DNA of 64,000 nt, from positions 1,302,001 through 1,366,000 of the forward strand of contig CP115555.1 of the NCBI GenBank assembly GCA_030168575.1, read 5' to 3'. The translations under genes were made by a program, and so were the position numbers. The DNA is from Methanomassiliicoccales archaeon LGM-RCC1. GTDB taxonomy: Archaea; Thermoplasmatota; Thermoplasmata; Methanomassiliicoccales; Methanomethylophilaceae. Shown one piece after another: positions 44,902 to 53,469 of this stretch (the first letter of the stretch is position 1; every line of letters starts with the position of its first letter). The notes under the pieces were generated by a model that saw only the letters and a list, made by a program, of their open reading frames with translations, was not told the origin of the DNA and searched no databases.

Positions 44902-45177
44902 CGATCATGATTCCATACCCATGGAGGTTAAATAACCAATTAGCCCGGCAACCGGCTCAGACCTCTCACCTACCCTTATCTATCAGTAAGACCCATCATC
45001 CATCGCAGGAACGATGGTAGCATCCGAGCAGGATGTGAGACGCATGTGGAAAAGAAAGAGGCGTTTTTCTGCACTGTTCTGACCAACAGAGTAGATTATT
45101 TATTGTGTTTTTTTGATTCATTTCCGAACTGAGCGTGACATCTGAGATGCAGATGTTTGTTGAGTTTGGGAAATCAT
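44902..45177. other. Intergenic region with two adjacent stem-loops
   Basis: CCATCG/CGATGG (45000-45017) and GCATCC/GGATGT (45020-45036) stand side by side, followed by a T-rich stretch near 45064. They could be the core of a small RNA or a terminator region. The promoters of the divergent 44209 and 45178 genes also lie here. No gene is visible. Confidence 0.4.
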
Positions 45178-46068
45178 ATGTCGGATGAAGACAAAAGAGG
45201 CTTCGTTTTCCACTCGTCTCAGGGAGAGACGGAGCTTTCGATCGAAGAGGTAAAGCAGCTCGCAGAGCGGAACGATCCGGATGGATTGTACGCGCTCGGG
45301 ATGGCATATCTCTACGGTTGGGACATCCCCCAGGATGAGGCCTTGGGGTACAAGTATCTCGAGGAGGCATCAGATAAGGGCCAGAGCGAGGCCATGACCC
45401 TTCTGGTCAGGATGTACATGCAGGGTGAGTATGACGGCATGGATCAGGAGAAGGCCGCCAAGATGTCCATCCTGGCCGCCAAAGACGGCATCCCCGATGC
45501 CCAGCTGTACGCAGGATTGGCCTACATGGACGGCATAGCCGTCAAACAGGATTACAAGGAAGCCGTAAGGTTGTTCCGTCTGGCAGCTAACCAGGGGAAT
45601 GATGAGGCCCGCACGAATCTCGCTTTCCTCTTCCAGGAAGGTCTGGGTGTCGAGAAGGACGAATCCAAGGCATTCAAGATGTACAGGACCTCGGCCAATA
45701 ACGGCAACCTCAATGCCATGTTCCATCTTGCCATCGCCTATGAGTTCGGTACCGGTACCAAAAGGGACATCTCCAAGGCAGTGGAATGGTACGCAAAAGG
45801 CTCTGATTCCAACGATCCATTCGCCGCCGAGAGGCTTGCTTACATCTATGCCGAGGGTATCGAAGGCATCGAACCCGATGCCGACAAAGCATTCGAATTG
45901 TTCTTGAAGGCAGCCAATGCAGGCATCCCCGGAGCCATGTTCATGGTCGGCTACTGTTACGTCGGAGGGCATGGCGTATCCCCCGATGTCGAAGAGGCCA
46001 AGAAGTGGCTGAAGATGGCCGCTGACAGCGATATCCCCGAGGCCAAGGAACTGTTGGCCCAACTGTGA
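45178..46068 (+). CDS. Sel1-repeat protein
   Basis: A 296-residue protein from ATG 45178 made almost wholly of Sel1-like repeats of about 36 residues. Examples are ALGMAYLYGWDIPQDEALG, YAGLAYMDGIAVKQDYKEA, NLAFLFQEGLGVEKDESKA and MVGYCYVGGHGVSPDVEEA. No signal peptide, so a cytoplasmic scaffold. It begins a five-gene run on the plus strand that continues with another Sel1 protein, the amber coiled-coil protein, a phosphoribosyltransferase and a protease. Confidence 0.9.
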   Translation: MSDEDKRGFVFHSSQGETELSIEEVKQLAERNDPDGLYALGMAYLYGWDIPQDEALGYKYLEEASDKGQSEAMTLLVRMYMQGEYDGMDQEKAAKMSILAAKDGIPDAQLYAGLAYMDGIAVKQDYKEAVRLFRLAANQGNDEARTNLAFLFQEGLGVEKDESKAFKMYRTSANNGNLNAMFHLAIAYEFGTGTKRDISKAVEWYAKGSDSNDPFAAERLAYIYAEGIEGIEPDADKAFELFLKAANAGIPGAMFMVGYCYVGGHGVSPDVEEAKKWLKMAADSDIPEAKELLAQL

Positions 46069-46102
46069 TTTATATTGTCCAATCCATAGGGGTCTCGATA
46101 AA

Positions 46103-46759
46103 ATGGACAGCGAGAACCTCAAAGCAAGCGCAGAGGCAGGAGACGTCGAATCCCAGTACAAGCTAGGACTCAACTACATCTATGGTACGGATGTCCCTAA
46201 GGACACCACCAAGGCCGCTGAGTGGTTCAAGAAGGCGGCAGATCAGGGATACCTCCCCGCACGCAGGGAACTCGCTTTGCTCCTGGCCGCCGGTGACGGT
46301 GTCGATGTTGACATGGAGAAAGCCATTCAATACCTCTCGGAGGCAGCTGACCAGCTCGATCCCAGCGCATTGTACCACCTCGGACTCATGTATGAGGTAG
46401 GAATCGGAATCCCCAAGGATCTCCAAAAGAGCGTCAGGATGCTCGCTTACGCGGCAGAGATGGGATATCCCGGAGCGGATACAGACGCTGAGAGAGTCGA
46501 TAAGATACTCTACGACGAGAGGGTCAAGAAGCTCCGCGCCAGACCTCTCTTGCACCTCCAGATTTCCGATGTGGATGTCGAGGCTGCTTGCTGCAAGCCG
46601 ATGCTGGACCATCTCATATCCGAGGATATAGTCTTCATCGACTCCAGGACAGGCCCCGCACTTCTGGGCGAGGACAAGGACGGAATGGACGCTGTACTGG
46701 ACCACTGCCCGTTCTGCGGAGCACCTATCCAGATCATACCCCGCGACACCAAGTTCTGA
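46103..46759 (+). CDS. Sel1-repeat protein with C-terminal zinc-ribbon-like motif
   Basis: A 218-residue protein with three or so Sel1 repeats (KLGLNYIYGTDVPKDTTKA, HLGLMYEVGIGIPKDLQKS) and a different C-terminal third ending in HCPFCGAPI, which looks like half a zinc ribbon, with CC at about 178. The stop overlaps the ATG of the amber-containing gene (TGATG/ATGA arrangement), so they are translationally coupled. Confidence 0.88.
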   Translation: MDSENLKASAEAGDVESQYKLGLNYIYGTDVPKDTTKAAEWFKKAADQGYLPARRELALLLAAGDGVDVDMEKAIQYLSEAADQLDPSALYHLGLMYEVGIGIPKDLQKSVRMLAYAAEMGYPGADTDAERVDKILYDERVKKLRARPLLHLQISDVDVEAACCKPMLDHLISEDIVFIDSRTGPALLGEDKDGMDAVLDHCPFCGAPIQIIPRDTKF

Positions 46760-47235
46760 TGAATATGGACGATACGGACCAGCAGATAGAGTTCCTGAAG
46801 GAGAAGCTCTCCATTCTCAGGGAGTAGATGCCCGAGACACCTCTCGATGCCGAGAAGAAGGCCATGGAGGTAGGGCTCATAGAGGAACAGCTGGCCGAGC
46901 TCTATCAGCAGAAAGGAATGCTGACAGACGATTCTCCCAAAACATCTAACGATCTCGATTCGCTCTCAGAGGAGATCGGATCCATCACGGACGAGCTGAT
47001 GGAGATCGAGATCAAGATGCTCAAAGCGGAGATGTCCGGAGACGACAGCGAGAAGATCAAGCTTCAGCTATCCGCCAACGCACTCAAATCCAGGAGGCAG
47101 GCTCTTATCGATGAGGTTAGGAACATGAACTCCCAGACCACAGACTCGTCCGGAGATCTGGAGGCCCGCATCGCCGCTCTGGAGAAGGAGGTCAGCGACC
47201 TCAAAGCATTAATCTACCAATTAATTACGAGATGA
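46759..47235 (+). CDS. Coiled-coil protein with in-frame TAG at codon 23
   Basis: From ATG 46759, which overlaps the stop of the Sel1 gene, the frame runs 22 codons (MNMDDTDQQIEFLKEKLSIL-RE), then TAG (46825-46827), then on without break to TGA 47235, giving 158 residues. Both parts are heptad-rich helix (QQIEFLKEKL before; EEQLAELYQQKGM, ELMEIEIKMLKAEM after), so one coiled coil spans the TAG. The ATG right after the TAG has only AGGGAG three bases away. Coupling to the upstream stop favours the full-length reading. TAG likely encodes pyrrolysine. The phosphoribosyltransferase gene follows five bases later. Confidence 0.83.
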
Positions 47236-47239
47236 TACC

Positions 47240-47800
47240 ATGGAAACCAATGAGTTGGAGAAGGCCTATCTGGCCTCTAAGGTCGTGATGAAGGGTGATT
47301 ATCCCTATTTCATCAACGCCATTTCGGACGGAAACCCCTCTATCTCACGCGAGCTTCTCGACCAGATAGTCGGAAACTTCCAGAGATTGACAGACCTCGA
47401 CACCGACGTCTATCTAGCTCCGGAAGCTATGGGAATCCCCATCGCAGCTGCACTTACCATGCGCACCGGAGTTCCATTCCAGATCATCCGTAAGAGAGGA
47501 CATGGCATCCCAGAGGAGATCAAGCTGAAGAAGGCCACCGGCTACGAGACCGCCGATATGTTCCTGAGCTTCATGGAGCCGGGTACAAAGGCCATACTGG
47601 TCGATGATGTTGTCAGCACTGGAGGTACTCTGGAGGCCATCGTGAACATTTTACGTGAACACGACATCATCATCGAAAAGGCCCTCTGCGTCCTGAACAA
47701 GTGCAAGGATCTTGATGCCCTTTCCGAGAAGATAGGAATACCGATCTACACGCTCATCGATGTCGCTGTCGAGGACGGAAAACCCGTTCTCAGACAATAA
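47240..47800 (+). CDS. Archaeal purine phosphoribosyltransferase (hypoxanthine/adenine type)
   Basis: Transfers ribose-phosphate from PRPP to a purine base for salvage. 186 residues with the PRPP loop AILVDDVVSTGGTLEAIV near residue 115, the PEAMGIPIAAALTMRTG base-side loop and PFQIIRKRGHGIPEE. This is the archaeal Hpt/Apt-like form. Sitting inside a run of Sel1, coiled-coil and protease genes is unusual for a housekeeping salvage enzyme. TAA stop. Confidence 0.9.
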   Translation: METNELEKAYLASKVVMKGDYPYFINAISDGNPSISRELLDQIVGNFQRLTDLDTDVYLAPEAMGIPIAAALTMRTGVPFQIIRKRGHGIPEEIKLKKATGYETADMFLSFMEPGTKAILVDDVVSTGGTLEAIVNILREHDIIIEKALCVLNKCKDLDALSEKIGIPIYTLIDVAVEDGKPVLRQ

Positions 47801-47812
47801 GGGGGAGTAGTC

Positions 47813-48694
47813 ATGTTCGCGGATGCCTGCCAGAAAGCCATGGGATACACACGTCCGGTAGCCGTCTCGACTCGTACTCTCGACGGCACATTGCGTACGG
47901 ATATCGCTTCCTTCATAGTCGTCAACAAGGACGGTTGGGCCATTACCGCGGGCCACGTATTCGATTCCTTCGCCAAATTCCAGAGCGACAGCAAGAAGAT
48001 GGAGGAGATCGATGTGATCAATTCCGGAAGATCTCAAGGCGCAGGAAAGCTCTCCGGCGAGATAAAGAAGGACAAAACCTTCCTAACCAACCATTCATTC
48101 TGGTGGGGATGGGACGGAGTCATGTTATCCACGGTCACCATCAACCGTCAGGCGGACATCGCATTGGTGAAATTGGAGAACTTTGACCCCAAGAATGTTC
48201 CCGAGTACCCCGTGTTCGCCGATTCATCCCACATGAGGATAGGCACAAGCGTTTGCCGCGGCGGCTATCCATTCATAGAGATCACTCCCAAGTTCCTTGA
48301 GGACAGGAAGGCTTTCAGCATCCCTTCCATACCTCATGACAAGTTCTTCTACCCCATAGACGGGATATTCACCCACTACGAGGACAAGGGCAAATCGAAA
48401 GACGGCAGCCTTGACCTCAAGTACATAGAGACCTCATCAATCGGTCTGAGAGGCCAGTCTGGCGGTCCGATCTTCGATGCTCAGGGAAGGATCTACGGAA
48501 TGCAGATACTCACAGAGCACCGTGTAACCGGATTCCACCCTACTGCAGAGGTCGATGGGCAGAAGTACATCGAGACTCAGTTCATGAACGTGGGTGTCGG
48601 ACTGCATGTGGACACCATCCTTCAGCTCATGGATATGAGGAACGTCAGGTATCAGAAGGAAGGCGACGAGAGCGGTTTCAGGATCGTCGACTGA
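47813..48694 (+). CDS. Cytoplasmic trypsin-like serine protease
   Basis: A 293-residue chymotrypsin-fold protein with the catalytic triad in order: His in AITAGHVFDSF (about residue 46), Asp in ADIALVKLENF, and Ser in GLRGQSGGPIFDAQGRIYGMQ (about residue 225). No signal peptide or membrane helix, so it acts inside the cell, where regulated proteases often serve quality control or defence. GGGGGAG lies seven bases before the ATG. Last of the five co-oriented genes from 45178. Confidence 0.87.
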   Translation: MFADACQKAMGYTRPVAVSTRTLDGTLRTDIASFIVVNKDGWAITAGHVFDSFAKFQSDSKKMEEIDVINSGRSQGAGKLSGEIKKDKTFLTNHSFWWGWDGVMLSTVTINRQADIALVKLENFDPKNVPEYPVFADSSHMRIGTSVCRGGYPFIEITPKFLEDRKAFSIPSIPHDKFFYPIDGIFTHYEDKGKSKDGSLDLKYIETSSIGLRGQSGGPIFDAQGRIYGMQILTEHRVTGFHPTAEVDGQKYIETQFMNVGVGLHVDTILQLMDMRNVRYQKEGDESGFRIVD

Positions 48695-49336
48695 TCAGAA
48701 TTTATCTGAAATCTCTGACGGAGAGTTGACGTATTTCAGGCCGTGCTTGACGCAGTAATCCTCGTTCAGCTCGTAGCCGTATGTGGCTGCCAGGAAGTCC
48801 GTGCCAGAGACTTTCGATGCCCTGTAATCATCCAAACCATCGCCGATCATCACTGCTTCTTCAGGCAGCACATCCACGTCGTAGATGCACATGTCTATCA
48901 GGTCCTCTTTGACGTAGGGTATCACAAAGCTCGCTCCGTGTACGGTATCGAAGTAGTCGATAATCCCATAGTTCTCCAGCGTACTCTTTGCATACTCATC
49001 TGCCATGAGAGTGGCCAGACCAATAAGGTATCCTCTTTCCTTGAGGTCTATGAGGACTTCTTTTATGCCGTCGAACAGTTCGGACATCGCCTGTCCGAAT
49101 TCTACGTAGAATTTCGTGTAGACCTTAATGGCCTCATCGATATCTATCGTAGGATCATCTAGAATCATCCTCAGATTCTCATCGAAAGGTCCGCAAAGGC
49201 CCTCGGCGATCCTGTCGTCCGTGATGTCCATCTTGCCATAATGCTCTCCAGTCCTCTTGTAGCAGTAGGCGATACCTGGGGAAGAATTGTTGACGGTACC
49301 GTCTAGATCGAAGATCAGGAGCTTAGTATCTGGCAT
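48695..49336 (-). CDS. HAD-superfamily phosphatase (phosphoglycolate phosphatase-like)
   Basis: A 213-residue haloacid dehalogenase-type hydrolase. Motif I is FDLDGTVNNSS with the nucleophile Asp, motif II is LIGLATLMADE, and the magnesium loop is VMIGDGLDDYRAS. A helical cap lies between motifs I and II. ATG 49336 (MPDTKLLIF) is chosen over an upstream frame start at 49378. Convergent with the protease gene, with adjoining stops. The substrate is unknown. Confidence 0.9.
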   Translation of the reverse strand: MPDTKLLIFDLDGTVNNSSPGIAYCYKRTGEHYGKMDITDDRIAEGLCGPFDENLRMILDDPTIDIDEAIKVYTKFYVEFGQAMSELFDGIKEVLIDLKERGYLIGLATLMADEYAKSTLENYGIIDYFDTVHGASFVIPYVKEDLIDMCIYDVDVLPEEAVMIGDGLDDYRASKVSGTDFLAATYGYELNEDYCVKHGLKYVNSPSEISDKF

Positions 49337-49463
49337 CAGCCCTCCAATCTGCACCACTAATAAAAATCTACACGCCATTAGGTAGGATGTTGAAAGGATA
49401 GATAACGAATTAGATGTAAATAATATATCTAATAAAGCTACAAGCTAAATTAATAAAGATACA

Positions 49464-49856
49464 ATGAACAACAAACCCGTATCGAAGGAAAAACTCGTGG
49501 AACTCTTCCATAACGGGGCTATCCGCAAGCTCGAGGAACATGAGATATTCGCTATGCGTGCCAATACTAATCCGGATCGCGAGAACGTGTACTCTGAACT
49601 AAGCACCTATGCGGACATCGAATCGCGCTACTACGATATGGCCGAGCATTACTATGCTGAAAACTTCTCTTATTTCGAGAATGGATCGAACGAAGATCTT
49701 CTAGAAATGACGAAGGAGAGCGAGCTGCCTCCAAGATTGTATGCAGAGTATCTGAGGGAGATCGATCCGGCCGAGAGGCTGAATGAGAAGATCACCCATG
49801 CCTACCTCACTAATCTGAAGAAGAACATCACCAAGATAAGGGACGAGATGAGATGA
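49464..49856 (+). CDS. Hypothetical helical protein, first of a two-gene unit
   Basis: A 130-residue, charge-rich and predicted helical protein that I do not recognise. It starts in AT-rich DNA containing AGCT-motif words (49430-49460) and its stop overlaps the ATG of the amber gene downstream (ATGA). The two are therefore translated together and are probably functional partners. No membrane segment or motif. Confidence 0.65.
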   Translation: MNNKPVSKEKLVELFHNGAIRKLEEHEIFAMRANTNPDRENVYSELSTYADIESRYYDMAEHYYAENFSYFENGSNEDLLEMTKESELPPRLYAEYLREIDPAERLNEKITHAYLTNLKKNITKIRDEMR

Positions 49857-50614
49857 TCTACGATTCGGATGAATGTGCTGTAATCGAATCTATCCGGAAC
49901 CGCAAGAGTTCTGAGCGCGTCATATACAACAGCATGGAGTTCCTTCCACCTTCTTTCATTTCCGCTATGGACTGTCAGATGCAACTGGATCTGTCGAGAT
50001 GCGATGCGATGCTCAGGATAGCAAAGAACGATTTCTCGAATCTTGACGAGGATCTCATTGCCCTGGCCCCTCACCCCATCTAGCTTCCTGTAGAATTGCA
50101 CCAGCATTACATGGAAAGCCTGACGGAAGAGGACATGCGTATGGAATCTGCATTCGTCGCTTACTGCAACATAGGCATCGGCGCATACTATCATTTCTCC
50201 ATGGCGCAGAAATGGTCCGAGGAGATATTGGCGGGGAGCAAAGCAGTATCATATTCCGATTTCATGGCGCTCCAGCGTCTGAGCGAATTACTGAGGATTG
50301 CAGGAGAGCGTTGCGATTTGATGAAGGATGAAACGGATCTGCCGTATGTCGAAGCAGGCCGGTATATCGAATGTATGCTCGATGAATGCAGCATCCTCAT
50401 GAGGACTCATCTGTCCAAGATAGTTACGATGGATGAGCTGTGCTATCATTTGGATTTCAGGGAGTATGTTGATGTCGATGCATTCAACAAGTTATTCCTT
50501 CCTGATTATGCACCGGAGGTACGCAGAGATATAATCGCTTTCCAGAACAAATTTGCTGCAAGAGGCGATATCTTGTATGCTTTGCTCATCGTTTCTGCTA
50601 AGATGCAGCTATAA
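49853..50614 (+). CDS. Hypothetical helical protein with in-frame TAG at codon 77
   Basis: From ATG 49853, in an ATGA overlap with the preceding gene, 76 codons are followed by TAG (50081-50083) and 176 more codons in the same frame to TAA 50614, giving 253 residues. The second part has no ribosome site and no ATG until 50111, and its composition (FSMAQKWSEEILAGSK, RLSELLRIAGERCDLM) matches the first part's helical style. A single gene read through TAG is the best model. I do not recognise the family. A long AT-rich convergent region follows. Confidence 0.75.
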
Positions 50615-51424
50615 CGTAATTAATTAAGCTGATTACTTTATTACATTAATTATTATCAAATTGCCTCTCTGTTTTGCTATTTTGTTTGAATATGTTAAAT
50701 TAATTTAGCTATTACATTAATTAGTTTAATTATTAATGCAGAAAACTGTAATGCAATGTAAATTCATAATTAATTTAGCTAATAACTAAATTGACTTTAT
50801 TTTTAATGATTAATAGTATAATGTAACGGAATTTTAAGATAGTTTGCAATTAATAAAGCTAATTGCTTTATTACATAAATTAATTGCAGATAATGCTCGT
50901 TGTATCGAAAAATTGGTTAAAATGTATATTATTATGCATTTTCAATGAAAATACATCAAAAATCGATTCATAGATCAAAAATCATCAGATTCATGGGCAA
51001 TATTCTGTCAATAACGGTCTCCCGAATATCAACTAAATTACCCTGTTTTTGACCTAAAAAGGGTGTACTTATCGTGTAGTTTAGCAGATTTCCATTATTT
51101 TGTGCTAATTGGGGCCATTTTTGTTCAAAACCATAGCGCTTGATGCCTTTGAGACTATACTTTAAGTCTAACTATTCGATATAGGGCATCTTATTGAATG
51201 GAAAATCTAAGATTGTTAGAATAACAACTGTAGACTATGCATATTCATCCCGGATTGTTTCATTTTTCACAGAAGATCTCGATGAATTCTAAAGTGCATT
51301 AATAATTATGTTAGTTTAGTTATTAGCTTAATTAATATTGATTAACTCATATTGCAAAATTTAATACATTAATTAAATTAGTTAGTTACGCTATTAGATA
51401 ATTGAATTAAGCTTAAAGCTTAAC
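50615..51424. repeat. 810-bp AT-rich non-coding region with an iterated AGCT-centred motif
   Basis: Lies between two convergent genes, so no promoter is needed for either. Words of the form AATTAATTTAGCTAATAACT recur at about 50617, 50700, 50770, 50850, 51310 and 51370. The copy at 50772-50792 is a perfect inverted repeat (AATTTAG/CTAAATT). The same word occurs at 37300-37370 and 49430-49460. No open frame or RNA is recognised. Confidence 0.6.
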
Positions 51425-52180
51425 TCAATTGAATTGCCCTTTCCAAATCCTTTCACCGAAGCCCGGGAAGTGTGTGCACATAAAAATGATCAGTTTGTTG
51501 GTTAAACCACAGACTGACCTCTTCTTGCCTTTGATAGCAGCTTTCAAAGCAGCCGCAACGACCTCTTCCTTGGATACTGCATTGGTGAACACTTTCTTGG
51601 GCACATCGGACTCGGTGAGGGTTATGTCAATGAAATCGGTTCTGACCCAACCGGGAGAGACCTCAGTTACCGTTATGCCCCTGTCCTTAAGCTCGATCCT
51701 CAATGCGCTACAGAAGTGACGCACGAAAGCTTTGGTTGATGCATATACATTCAGATCGTATAGCGGCAGATATGCAGATTCGGAGCATAGTTCAATTATG
51801 TGGCTCCCACGCTTCATGTAGGGGATGCATATGTTTGTCATCTCGACCAGAGCAGTGACGTTGAGGTCGATCATGGCCCTGGTCTGTTCCTTGGGAAGTT
51901 CCCAGGTCATACCGAACTTGCCGAACCCCGCGCAATTTACCAGGAAACAGATCTCGGGTTTCTCAGCATCGATGAGTGCCCTTATGGAGTCCAATTCTGC
52001 CCTGTCTGTTAGATCGGCAGGAATAACACGTGTAGAAGTCTTCAAAGAAGCGGCTATATCGTCCAGGAGGTCTTTCCTCCTGGCGATGAGCCAAATAGAA
52101 TCAAGATTCAGGGCATCGAGCCTGCGGCAGAATTCTGCACCCATGCCTGAGGATGCCCCGGTTACGATAGCTACAGACAT
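51425..52180 (-). CDS. Short-chain dehydrogenase/reductase
   Basis: A 251-residue NAD(P)-dependent oxidoreductase from ATG 52180 (MSVAIVTG). The dinucleotide loop is TGASSGMGAEF, NCAGFG is present, and the catalytic set is Ser in CSESAY and Tyr/Lys in YASTKAF. It resembles classical SDRs of the YqjQ/DltE type acting on lipid-like or keto substrates; the substrate is unknown. Its ATG overlaps the stop of a tiny membrane-peptide gene. It is followed by the long AT-rich region. Confidence 0.92.
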   Translation of the reverse strand: MSVAIVTGASSGMGAEFCRRLDALNLDSIWLIARRKDLLDDIAASLKTSTRVIPADLTDRAELDSIRALIDAEKPEICFLVNCAGFGKFGMTWELPKEQTRAMIDLNVTALVEMTNICIPYMKRGSHIIELCSESAYLPLYDLNVYASTKAFVRHFCSALRIELKDRGITVTEVSPGWVRTDFIDITLTESDVPKKVFTNAVSKEEVVAAALKAAIKGKKRSVCGLTNKLIIFMCTHFPGFGERIWKGQFN

Positions 52181-52275
52181 CAGATGAATACGGATGCTGC
52201 GGCTACGACGGCGACAACGACCATTATACCGACCATTAGCAGCGCGCGCCACTTGGCCTTATCTTGCTTGTTCAT
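52180..52275 (-). CDS. 31-residue single-span membrane peptide
   Basis: Reads MNKQDKAKWRALLMVGIMVV and on to VAVVAAASVFI: a basic, polar N-terminus followed by one hydrophobic helix of about 20 residues, so N-in topology is likely. The TGA overlaps the ATG of the SDR gene (TGATG), implying coupled translation. No strong ribosome site is seen at the ATG. It may anchor or modulate the SDR at the membrane. Short length limits confidence. Confidence 0.55.
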   Translation of the reverse strand: MNKQDKAKWRALLMVGIMVVVAVVAAASVFI

Positions 52276-52389
52276 ATTGGTCAGAATTTCATTCAGATAT
52301 ATAACGGTTGAATTGATTGGATAATTTGACTTCCCATCTGGGATGGTCCCGGGTTGCCCCGGGACCTAATGATATGGGTTTATGGCCGT

Positions 52390-53448
52390 TCAGCGGTTCT
52401 CTGCCTCCATTCCATCGGAATCGTGGGCCTGGTCATAGACGAAGGCCGTTGCCATGCGCTTCTCCCTCTCGTCGGTCTTCTTGGCGAATGTCTCCGGCGG
52501 GGAAGGCTGGTTGAGCACGATCTGGTTGAACGGAATCTCTATGTGGATCTCGTTGGCCATCCTATAGATCTCTCTGTTGAGGGCTCTCCTCGCAGGATAG
52601 AAGTCGACTTCTTTACATTTAGCGAGGAAAAGGAGGTTGACGCTGCTGTCCAACATGTCCTGAACCCCCTTGTAGTAGGGGCCTTCCACGATGTAGGGGA
52701 TCTTATCCTTGATCTTGGGCATGTAGTCCCTGATGAGGAGCTCGACCCTCTCGAGATCGTCAGCGTAGTTGATCGGCAACTCGCACCTGATGACAGACAG
52801 CTCCTGACTCTGGTTGACGACGGCGCTGATCGTGTTGTTGTTGAGGTACTTGATGTTGCCGCCCTCGTCCTGGATCTTGGTGGTACGGATCCCGATCTCC
52901 ATGACGGATCCCCTCCAGCCGTCCACGACGATGAAGTCGCCGACCTTGAACTCACCGTCGAACACGATGAACAGTCCGGCGATGATATCTGCGATGAGCG
53001 ATTGTGCACCAAGACCTATGATCAGTCCCAAGATTCCCGCACTTACCAGCAAAGCCTGGGTGTCAACGCCCCATGAGGATAGGATCCAAATGATGGCGAC
53101 GATGAATATCGCATACCTTGAGAAGCTCAGGATTAGCCTCAGGGCGGTCTGGAAGTGGGTGTCCGCCTTGATTCTGTTCTTTATGACGTTGAGCACAACG
53201 AACAGCAGCAACGTGACGAAGAGGATCTCGCAGGTCCTTATCAAAGCAGGGATCTCCTGATACAGCGAATCGATCACGGCGTTCCCTGTGGGGGCGTCGT
53301 TGAATATCGAGTCCGGACCGAAGATGTACTGGTCGAATACCACGGCAAGCACCGTGACGATGCCCAGCAGGGCCACCGCCACGAGCACTGCGCGACTTTC
53401 TCTCTGTTCATCGGAGAGTTCTTTGTTGTTTTCCTTTTCATTTGTCAT
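52390..53448 (-). CDS. MscS-type mechanosensitive channel
   Basis: A 352-residue small-conductance mechanosensitive channel that releases solutes during osmotic downshock. Three hydrophobic helices occur at about residues 20-45, 68-90 and 105-130, followed by the pore helix (LVSAGILGLIIGLGAQSLIADIIAG) and the beta domain start FDGEFKVGDFIVVDGWRG. ATG 53448 has GGTGAG just upstream; ATG 53460 would add four residues. The surface-protein gene on the same strand ends about 20 bases upstream. Confidence 0.93.
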   Translation of the reverse strand: MTNEKENNKELSDEQRESRAVLVAVALLGIVTVLAVVFDQYIFGPDSIFNDAPTGNAVIDSLYQEIPALIRTCEILFVTLLLFVVLNVIKNRIKADTHFQTALRLILSFSRYAIFIVAIIWILSSWGVDTQALLVSAGILGLIIGLGAQSLIADIIAGLFIVFDGEFKVGDFIVVDGWRGSVMEIGIRTTKIQDEGGNIKYLNNNTISAVVNQSQELSVIRCELPINYADDLERVELLIRDYMPKIKDKIPYIVEGPYYKGVQDMLDSSVNLLFLAKCKEVDFYPARRALNREIYRMANEIHIEIPFNQIVLNQPSPPETFAKKTDEREKRMATAFVYDQAHDSDGMEAENR

Positions 53449-53469
53449 TTTCTCACCCATATCATAATA

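Follow-up and report, generated by a model that had tools for sequence, protein, structure and literature searches.

The locus raises the question of whether an in-frame TAG separates two genes, has disabled one gene, or is read through as an amino acid within a single protein. The window, that is, the whole stretch of 64,000 nucleotides that was analysed (G000:C1:1302001-1366000), belongs to a genome of 1.66 Mb (1,664 kb) in a single contig. On its forward strand, an ATG-initiated frame of 76 codons (49853-50080) is followed by a TAG at codon 77 (50081..50083) and, in phase, by a frame of 176 codons (50084-50611) closed by TAA (50612-50614), which bears out the coordinates and frames given in a preliminary description made from the letters alone. 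If read through, this gene (49853..50614, +) would encode one 253-residue all-helical protein. Its ATG overlaps, as ATGA, the stop of an upstream gene of 130 amino acids (49464..49856, +), as the proposed translational coupling of the first frame to the preceding gene had implied. The gene is very probably not broken, its apparent stop being read as pyrrolysine to yield one full-length protein, because its relatives among other, apparently rumen-type methanogenic archaea have an in-frame amber codon too, at this position or at a second one. The chance of 176 open codons past a random stop is about (61/64)^176 = 2e-4, and homology and selection make a much stronger case for continuous reading than this open-frame chance.

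Matches to the read-through protein were observed in 22 of the 102 genomes of the taxonomic family, all belonging to the window's own genus, and an alignment-based search across 147 genomes of the order also gave matches in 22, again all of that genus. A TAG lies within the match in six of these homologues and is absent from the other 16. The eight near orthologues (G000, the genome of the window, with G054, G058, G064, G062, G057, G050 and G052) show 38–88% identity to the window protein; six of them contain an in-frame TAG, and their TAGs, eight in total, are confined to columns 54 and 77, every one within the first third of the gene. Residue 77 is TAG in G000, G054, G058, G062 and G057 (5/8) and residue 54 in G062, G057 and G050 (3/8), with both columns being TAG in G062 and G057, while codon 54 of the window (50012..50014, +) is CTC, encoding leucine. 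The remaining codons of the near orthologues are CTC, CTC, ATG, CTG and GAG at column 54 (Leu, Met or Glu) and ACC, ATA and TCT at column 77 (Thr, Ile or Ser), lysine never occupying either column where the TAG is absent. Column 77 is TAG in five of the seven orthologues of the 253-codon frame, though columns 75 and 76 vary. The family is fast-evolving, with identities of 38–50% outside the G054 pair, and the TAG is common to lineages at 44–50% identity. The relatives include metagenome-assembled genomes (named as Thermoplasmata, Methanomassiliicoccaceae or Methanomethylophilaceae archaeon), one of them from roe deer omasum, and the remaining ones seem to be rumen-type, going by isolate names. 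No TAG interrupts two of the near orthologues or any of the 14 remoter homologues, so the search for full-length homologues that the preliminary description had proposed recovered single continuous proteins, and the outcome of two separate proteins only did not occur. Because of these 16 sequences, pyrrolysine is not required by the orphan helical family as a whole.

The same continuous proteins speak against the reading in which the TAG terminates a 76-residue protein and a second, coupled protein starts downstream. Since the amber-containing gene is itself coupled to the preceding gene, a further coupled gene is conceivable, and among the possible starts past the TAG in G000 (TTG 82 and ATG 87, 95 and 97), the ATG at codon 95 follows a purine-rich stretch that resembles a Shine-Dalgarno site in both G000 and G054. 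The earlier statement that the second frame lacks a start with a ribosome site may not hold for this codon in these two genomes; it stands in that such a start is not conserved, as G062 contains no ATG, GTG or TTG from its TAGs (codons 54 and 77) up to codon 125. Codons 78–86, located ahead of any ATG, are conserved, and the 22 codons between the two TAGs of G062 and G057 are likewise in frame and conserved. The AlphaFold2 model (21 sequences, run with lysine at residue 77 as O was passed as K; mean pLDDT 91.8, pTM 0.82) represents one all-helical fold running through residue 77, with residue 54 in helix 33–57 and residue 77 in the loop between helices 64–71 and 80–89, and a cut at the TAG would split this predicted fold. 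Because G062 offers no start before codon 125, synthesis of two separate proteins by downstream restart is unlikely, and a pair of coupled genes is, on all of this evidence, a very improbable account of the locus.

The integrity of the reading frame was also observed across the near orthologues, none of which contains an in-frame TAA or TGA past codon 77 before the terminal stop (8/8), compared with 5–18 such stops in each other forward frame. Between G000 and G054, where the TAG is kept, dN/dS is 0.033 for codons 1–76 and 0.064 from codon 78 onward (dS 0.86 and 1.2), indicating that purifying selection acts on both sides of the TAG; more distant pairs are close to synonymous saturation, and their pairwise values were not used. 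A decaying gene, with the TAG as a disabling mutation, might be suggested by the fast evolution of this orphan family and by the codon-usage scores of the amber-containing gene (0.15 and 0.13, near the threshold of 0.12), but the low dN/dS values, the TAG common to divergent lineages and the frames free of TAA and TGA make this extremely improbable. The decay in close relatives that the preliminary description had named as counter-evidence was not seen, gene order being conserved as well. G000 and G054 share about 98% identity across most of the region compared and only 86.7% over window positions 45066-53465, which suggests that the two alleles probably separated before the strains did, with the TAG kept in both. 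These roughly 8.4 kb, flanked by sequence at about 95–98% identity to the same-species G054, likely represent a divergent allele brought by recombination. No conserved RNA structure was found 3' of the TAG (z-score -0.09; consensus hairpin weak at -2.92 kcal/mol, some of its pairs being broken), nor was a PYLIS-type structured RNA element recognized in the amber-containing gene.

The machinery for decoding TAG is encoded nearby. A tRNA-Pyl with anticodon CTA (read as CUA) is located at L029:6439-6509 and is followed by PylS, which scores over the curated cut-off, and then by PylB-, PylC- and PylD-like ORFs named from their order and sequence rather than by family search, so that a pylT(CUA)-pylS-pylB-pylC-pylD cluster lies 7.6–11.6 kb before the window. 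Of 34 related genomes tested, 32 gave a PylS, among them every one of the 20 that are of good quality. The use of TAG was assessed in 242 kb of the 1,664 kb, made up of 82 kb surrounding the window plus eight samples of 20 kb each. Heuristic gene calls shorter than 70 codons, or with a codon-usage score that was low (threshold 0.12), were removed before counting. Of 179 gene calls, 156 end in TGA, 17 in TAA and six in TAG. Three of the six TAG calls (MtmB, aconitase and ThiF) have a Pfam match on either side of the TAG or a whole one only when read through, and the others are the amber-containing gene of the window, one call antisense to pylS and one at C1:319542-319937. The last of these (G000:C1:319542-319937) spans 131 codons up to its TAG, beyond which the frame extends for 21 low-scoring codons, and it possibly represents a genuine TAG stop. 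True TAG terminators would thus number at most one or two among the 179 calls of the 242 kb sample, and annotating with the standard code breaks up real genes of this genome, aconitase included.

It might still be supposed that the TAG is read as a standard amino acid, by another amber-suppressing tRNA or by near-cognate read-through, which would accord with the Leu, Met or Glu at column 54 and the Thr, Ile or Ser at column 77, never Lys, of near orthologues without the TAG, and with a tRNA scan covering 18 kb of the genome. The tRNA-Pyl, PylS and PylB/C/D-like ORFs, together with an MtmB that carries a TAG in this genome, leave this account only a slight chance. Homologues, the intact locus, the pyl genes and the rarity of TAG terminators all support the initial view of the TAG as a pyrrolysine candidate, and we infer both that the inserted residue is pyrrolysine and that its insertion outcompetes termination. 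It is highly probable that 49853-50614 is an intact gene in which the organism's own PylRS would charge tRNA-Pyl(CUA) and this tRNA would decode the internal TAG, placing pyrrolysine at residue 77 of a 253-residue all-helical protein that would be co-translated with the preceding 130-residue protein.

Differential patterns were observed for the TAGs of other genes. The aconitase gene (G000:C1:1206211-1209033, minus strand; L082:6211-9033) has a TAG at residue 175 in one of 14 genomes, with AAG in most relatives, and the aconitase of G050 has its own, different TAG at residue 656; the ThiF-family gene (G000:C1:1299884-1300504; L029:15884-16504) has a TAG at residue 112 in one of 14 genomes, with GAG in most relatives. 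Outside methylamine metabolism, proteins proposed to contain pyrrolysine can resemble passing accidents, like these two TAGs. In the eight orthologues, two TAGs occur in 13,568 codons of flanking genes versus eight in 2,020 codons of the amber family, a contrast that is descriptive, as TAGs inherited together are not independent. Single-species TAGs of flanking genes were seen at residue 67 of a HAD gene (G057, L063) and at residue 61 of an SDR gene (G062, L061). Because the aconitase and ThiF TAGs are strain-private and the flanking genes are TAG-poor, the recurrence of TAG in the amber family appears unusual.

Parsimony places two to three changes of TAG state per column on both trees, whose deep nodes are poorly supported (40–88 in the flanking-gene tree and 20–76 in the family tree), and owing to this poor support an ancient gain followed by losses and a repeated gain are not separable; two unrelated gains in one given pair would fall on the same column of 253 with a chance of about 0.004. 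The default explanation for the origin of the TAGs is that a sense codon mutated neutrally to TAG and was then kept for a long time. It may be proposed, tentatively, that the TAGs are held by selection, either as pyrrolysine acts at residue 54 or 77 or as the early TAG ties synthesis to the pyrrolysine supply; if true, this family would be among the few proteins outside methylamine metabolism keeping either the 22nd amino acid or the codon for it across species. A gate, in which the protein would be completed only with pyrrolysine in supply and would in this way be tied to methylamine metabolism, adds to pyrrolysine decoding and could fit the confinement of all TAGs to the gene's first third, the orthologues with one column, the other or both, and the density of TAG relative to the neighbouring genes. 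Such a gate is nevertheless unlikely, given the two near orthologues without any TAG, the shared inheritance behind the TAG counts, and the pyl system of the related Ca. Methanomethylophilus alvus, which is argued in passages of Borrel et al. 2014 (PMC4153887) to be constitutive.

Searches of Pfam, NCBIfam, PHROGs and PADLOC returned no family for either the 253-residue or the 130-residue protein, and no match to a methylamine methyltransferase (MtmB, MtbB or MttB) was found in Pfam or NCBIfam. The 76-codon piece alone gave one sub-cut-off Pfam match (DUF7844, E 0.16), and all 21 family members gave scattered weak Pfam matches only. A profile search of solved structures yielded weak partial matches, the best being to Cyclin-Y (E 0.0054, 52 positions), and Foldseek with the predicted fold returned no match at E <= 0.001. 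Assignment of a fold from the best VIA-align match (Z 7.0, rmsd 4.8, 109 residues) was dropped, as this Z lies in the range that VIA-align itself regards as a common arrangement of helices. On these searches, the family matches none of the libraries. The order of genes leading to the locus is Sel1, Sel1, coiled-coil, phosphoribosyltransferase, trypsin-like, HAD, the 130-residue gene and the amber-containing gene, with names assigned from sequence save for a weak protease match, and this order is largely kept in six named loci and partly in others. After the amber-containing gene, window positions 50615-51430 form an intergenic stretch rich in A+T, in which a TTAATTA-like motif recurs, as judged by eye, in many near-repeats. 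The 130-residue gene and the amber-containing gene stand side by side in 12 of the 14 loci with long flanks; of the other two, L074 gave no match and L075 a match to the 130-residue gene only, where the alignment-based search nonetheless places a family member right beside it. The N-terminal half of the amber-containing protein resembles the 130-residue family in a single hhalign comparison (P 2e-4, 98 columns, 46% probability), the BLASTP comparison of the two window proteins being insignificant. Because this half resembles the family of its co-translated neighbour, the two proteins might form a helical complex or scaffold, a suggestion that we regard as doubtful. An internal duplication, with the N-terminal half set against the C-terminal half, received no support from profile comparison.

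Topic-word searches, which cannot show absence, found no paper on the amber-containing family. Pyrrolysine in the tRNA-His guanylyltransferase of Methanosarcina, which Heinemann et al. reportedly argued in 2009 to be neutral, is also a case of TAG in a non-methyltransferase gene, and the present family would differ from it in keeping its TAG in divergent species, at one or other of two sites. Kivenson et al. are reported to have described, in 2025, an archaeal code that assigns all TAGs to pyrrolysine, under which each TAG of such a genome should be a sense codon. The kind of protein considered here is already known, as passages of Borrel et al. 2014 (PMC4153887) predict pyrrolysine in non-methyltransferase proteins of these archaea, listing for Ca. 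M. alvus 16 putative Pyl proteins other than the methylamine methyltransferases. TAG stops are rare in that genome (1.6%), and the authors argue that a permanently active tRNA-Pyl allows TAGs to appear and to be retained. The window agrees with that system in the methanogen order, in non-methyltransferase genes with an in-frame TAG and in rare TAG stops, whereas the prediction for Ca. M. alvus concerns one genome and the TAG of this family is found repeatedly, at two columns, in several species. Conserved iORF clusters, which in the parts of PMC3639795 concerned include a TetR regulator, transposases and a histidine kinase, are likewise non-methyltransferase TAG genes kept within or between genomes, and cluster 16 spans three archaea and is termed less neutral; their families and organisms differ from those described here, and these parts make no mention of a second TAG column. 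The part worth following is this recurrent two-column TAG in an orphan family, as its presence at one fixed column, the other or both, in species about 45% identical, offers a direct natural test of selection for pyrrolysine outside the methylamine methyltransferases.
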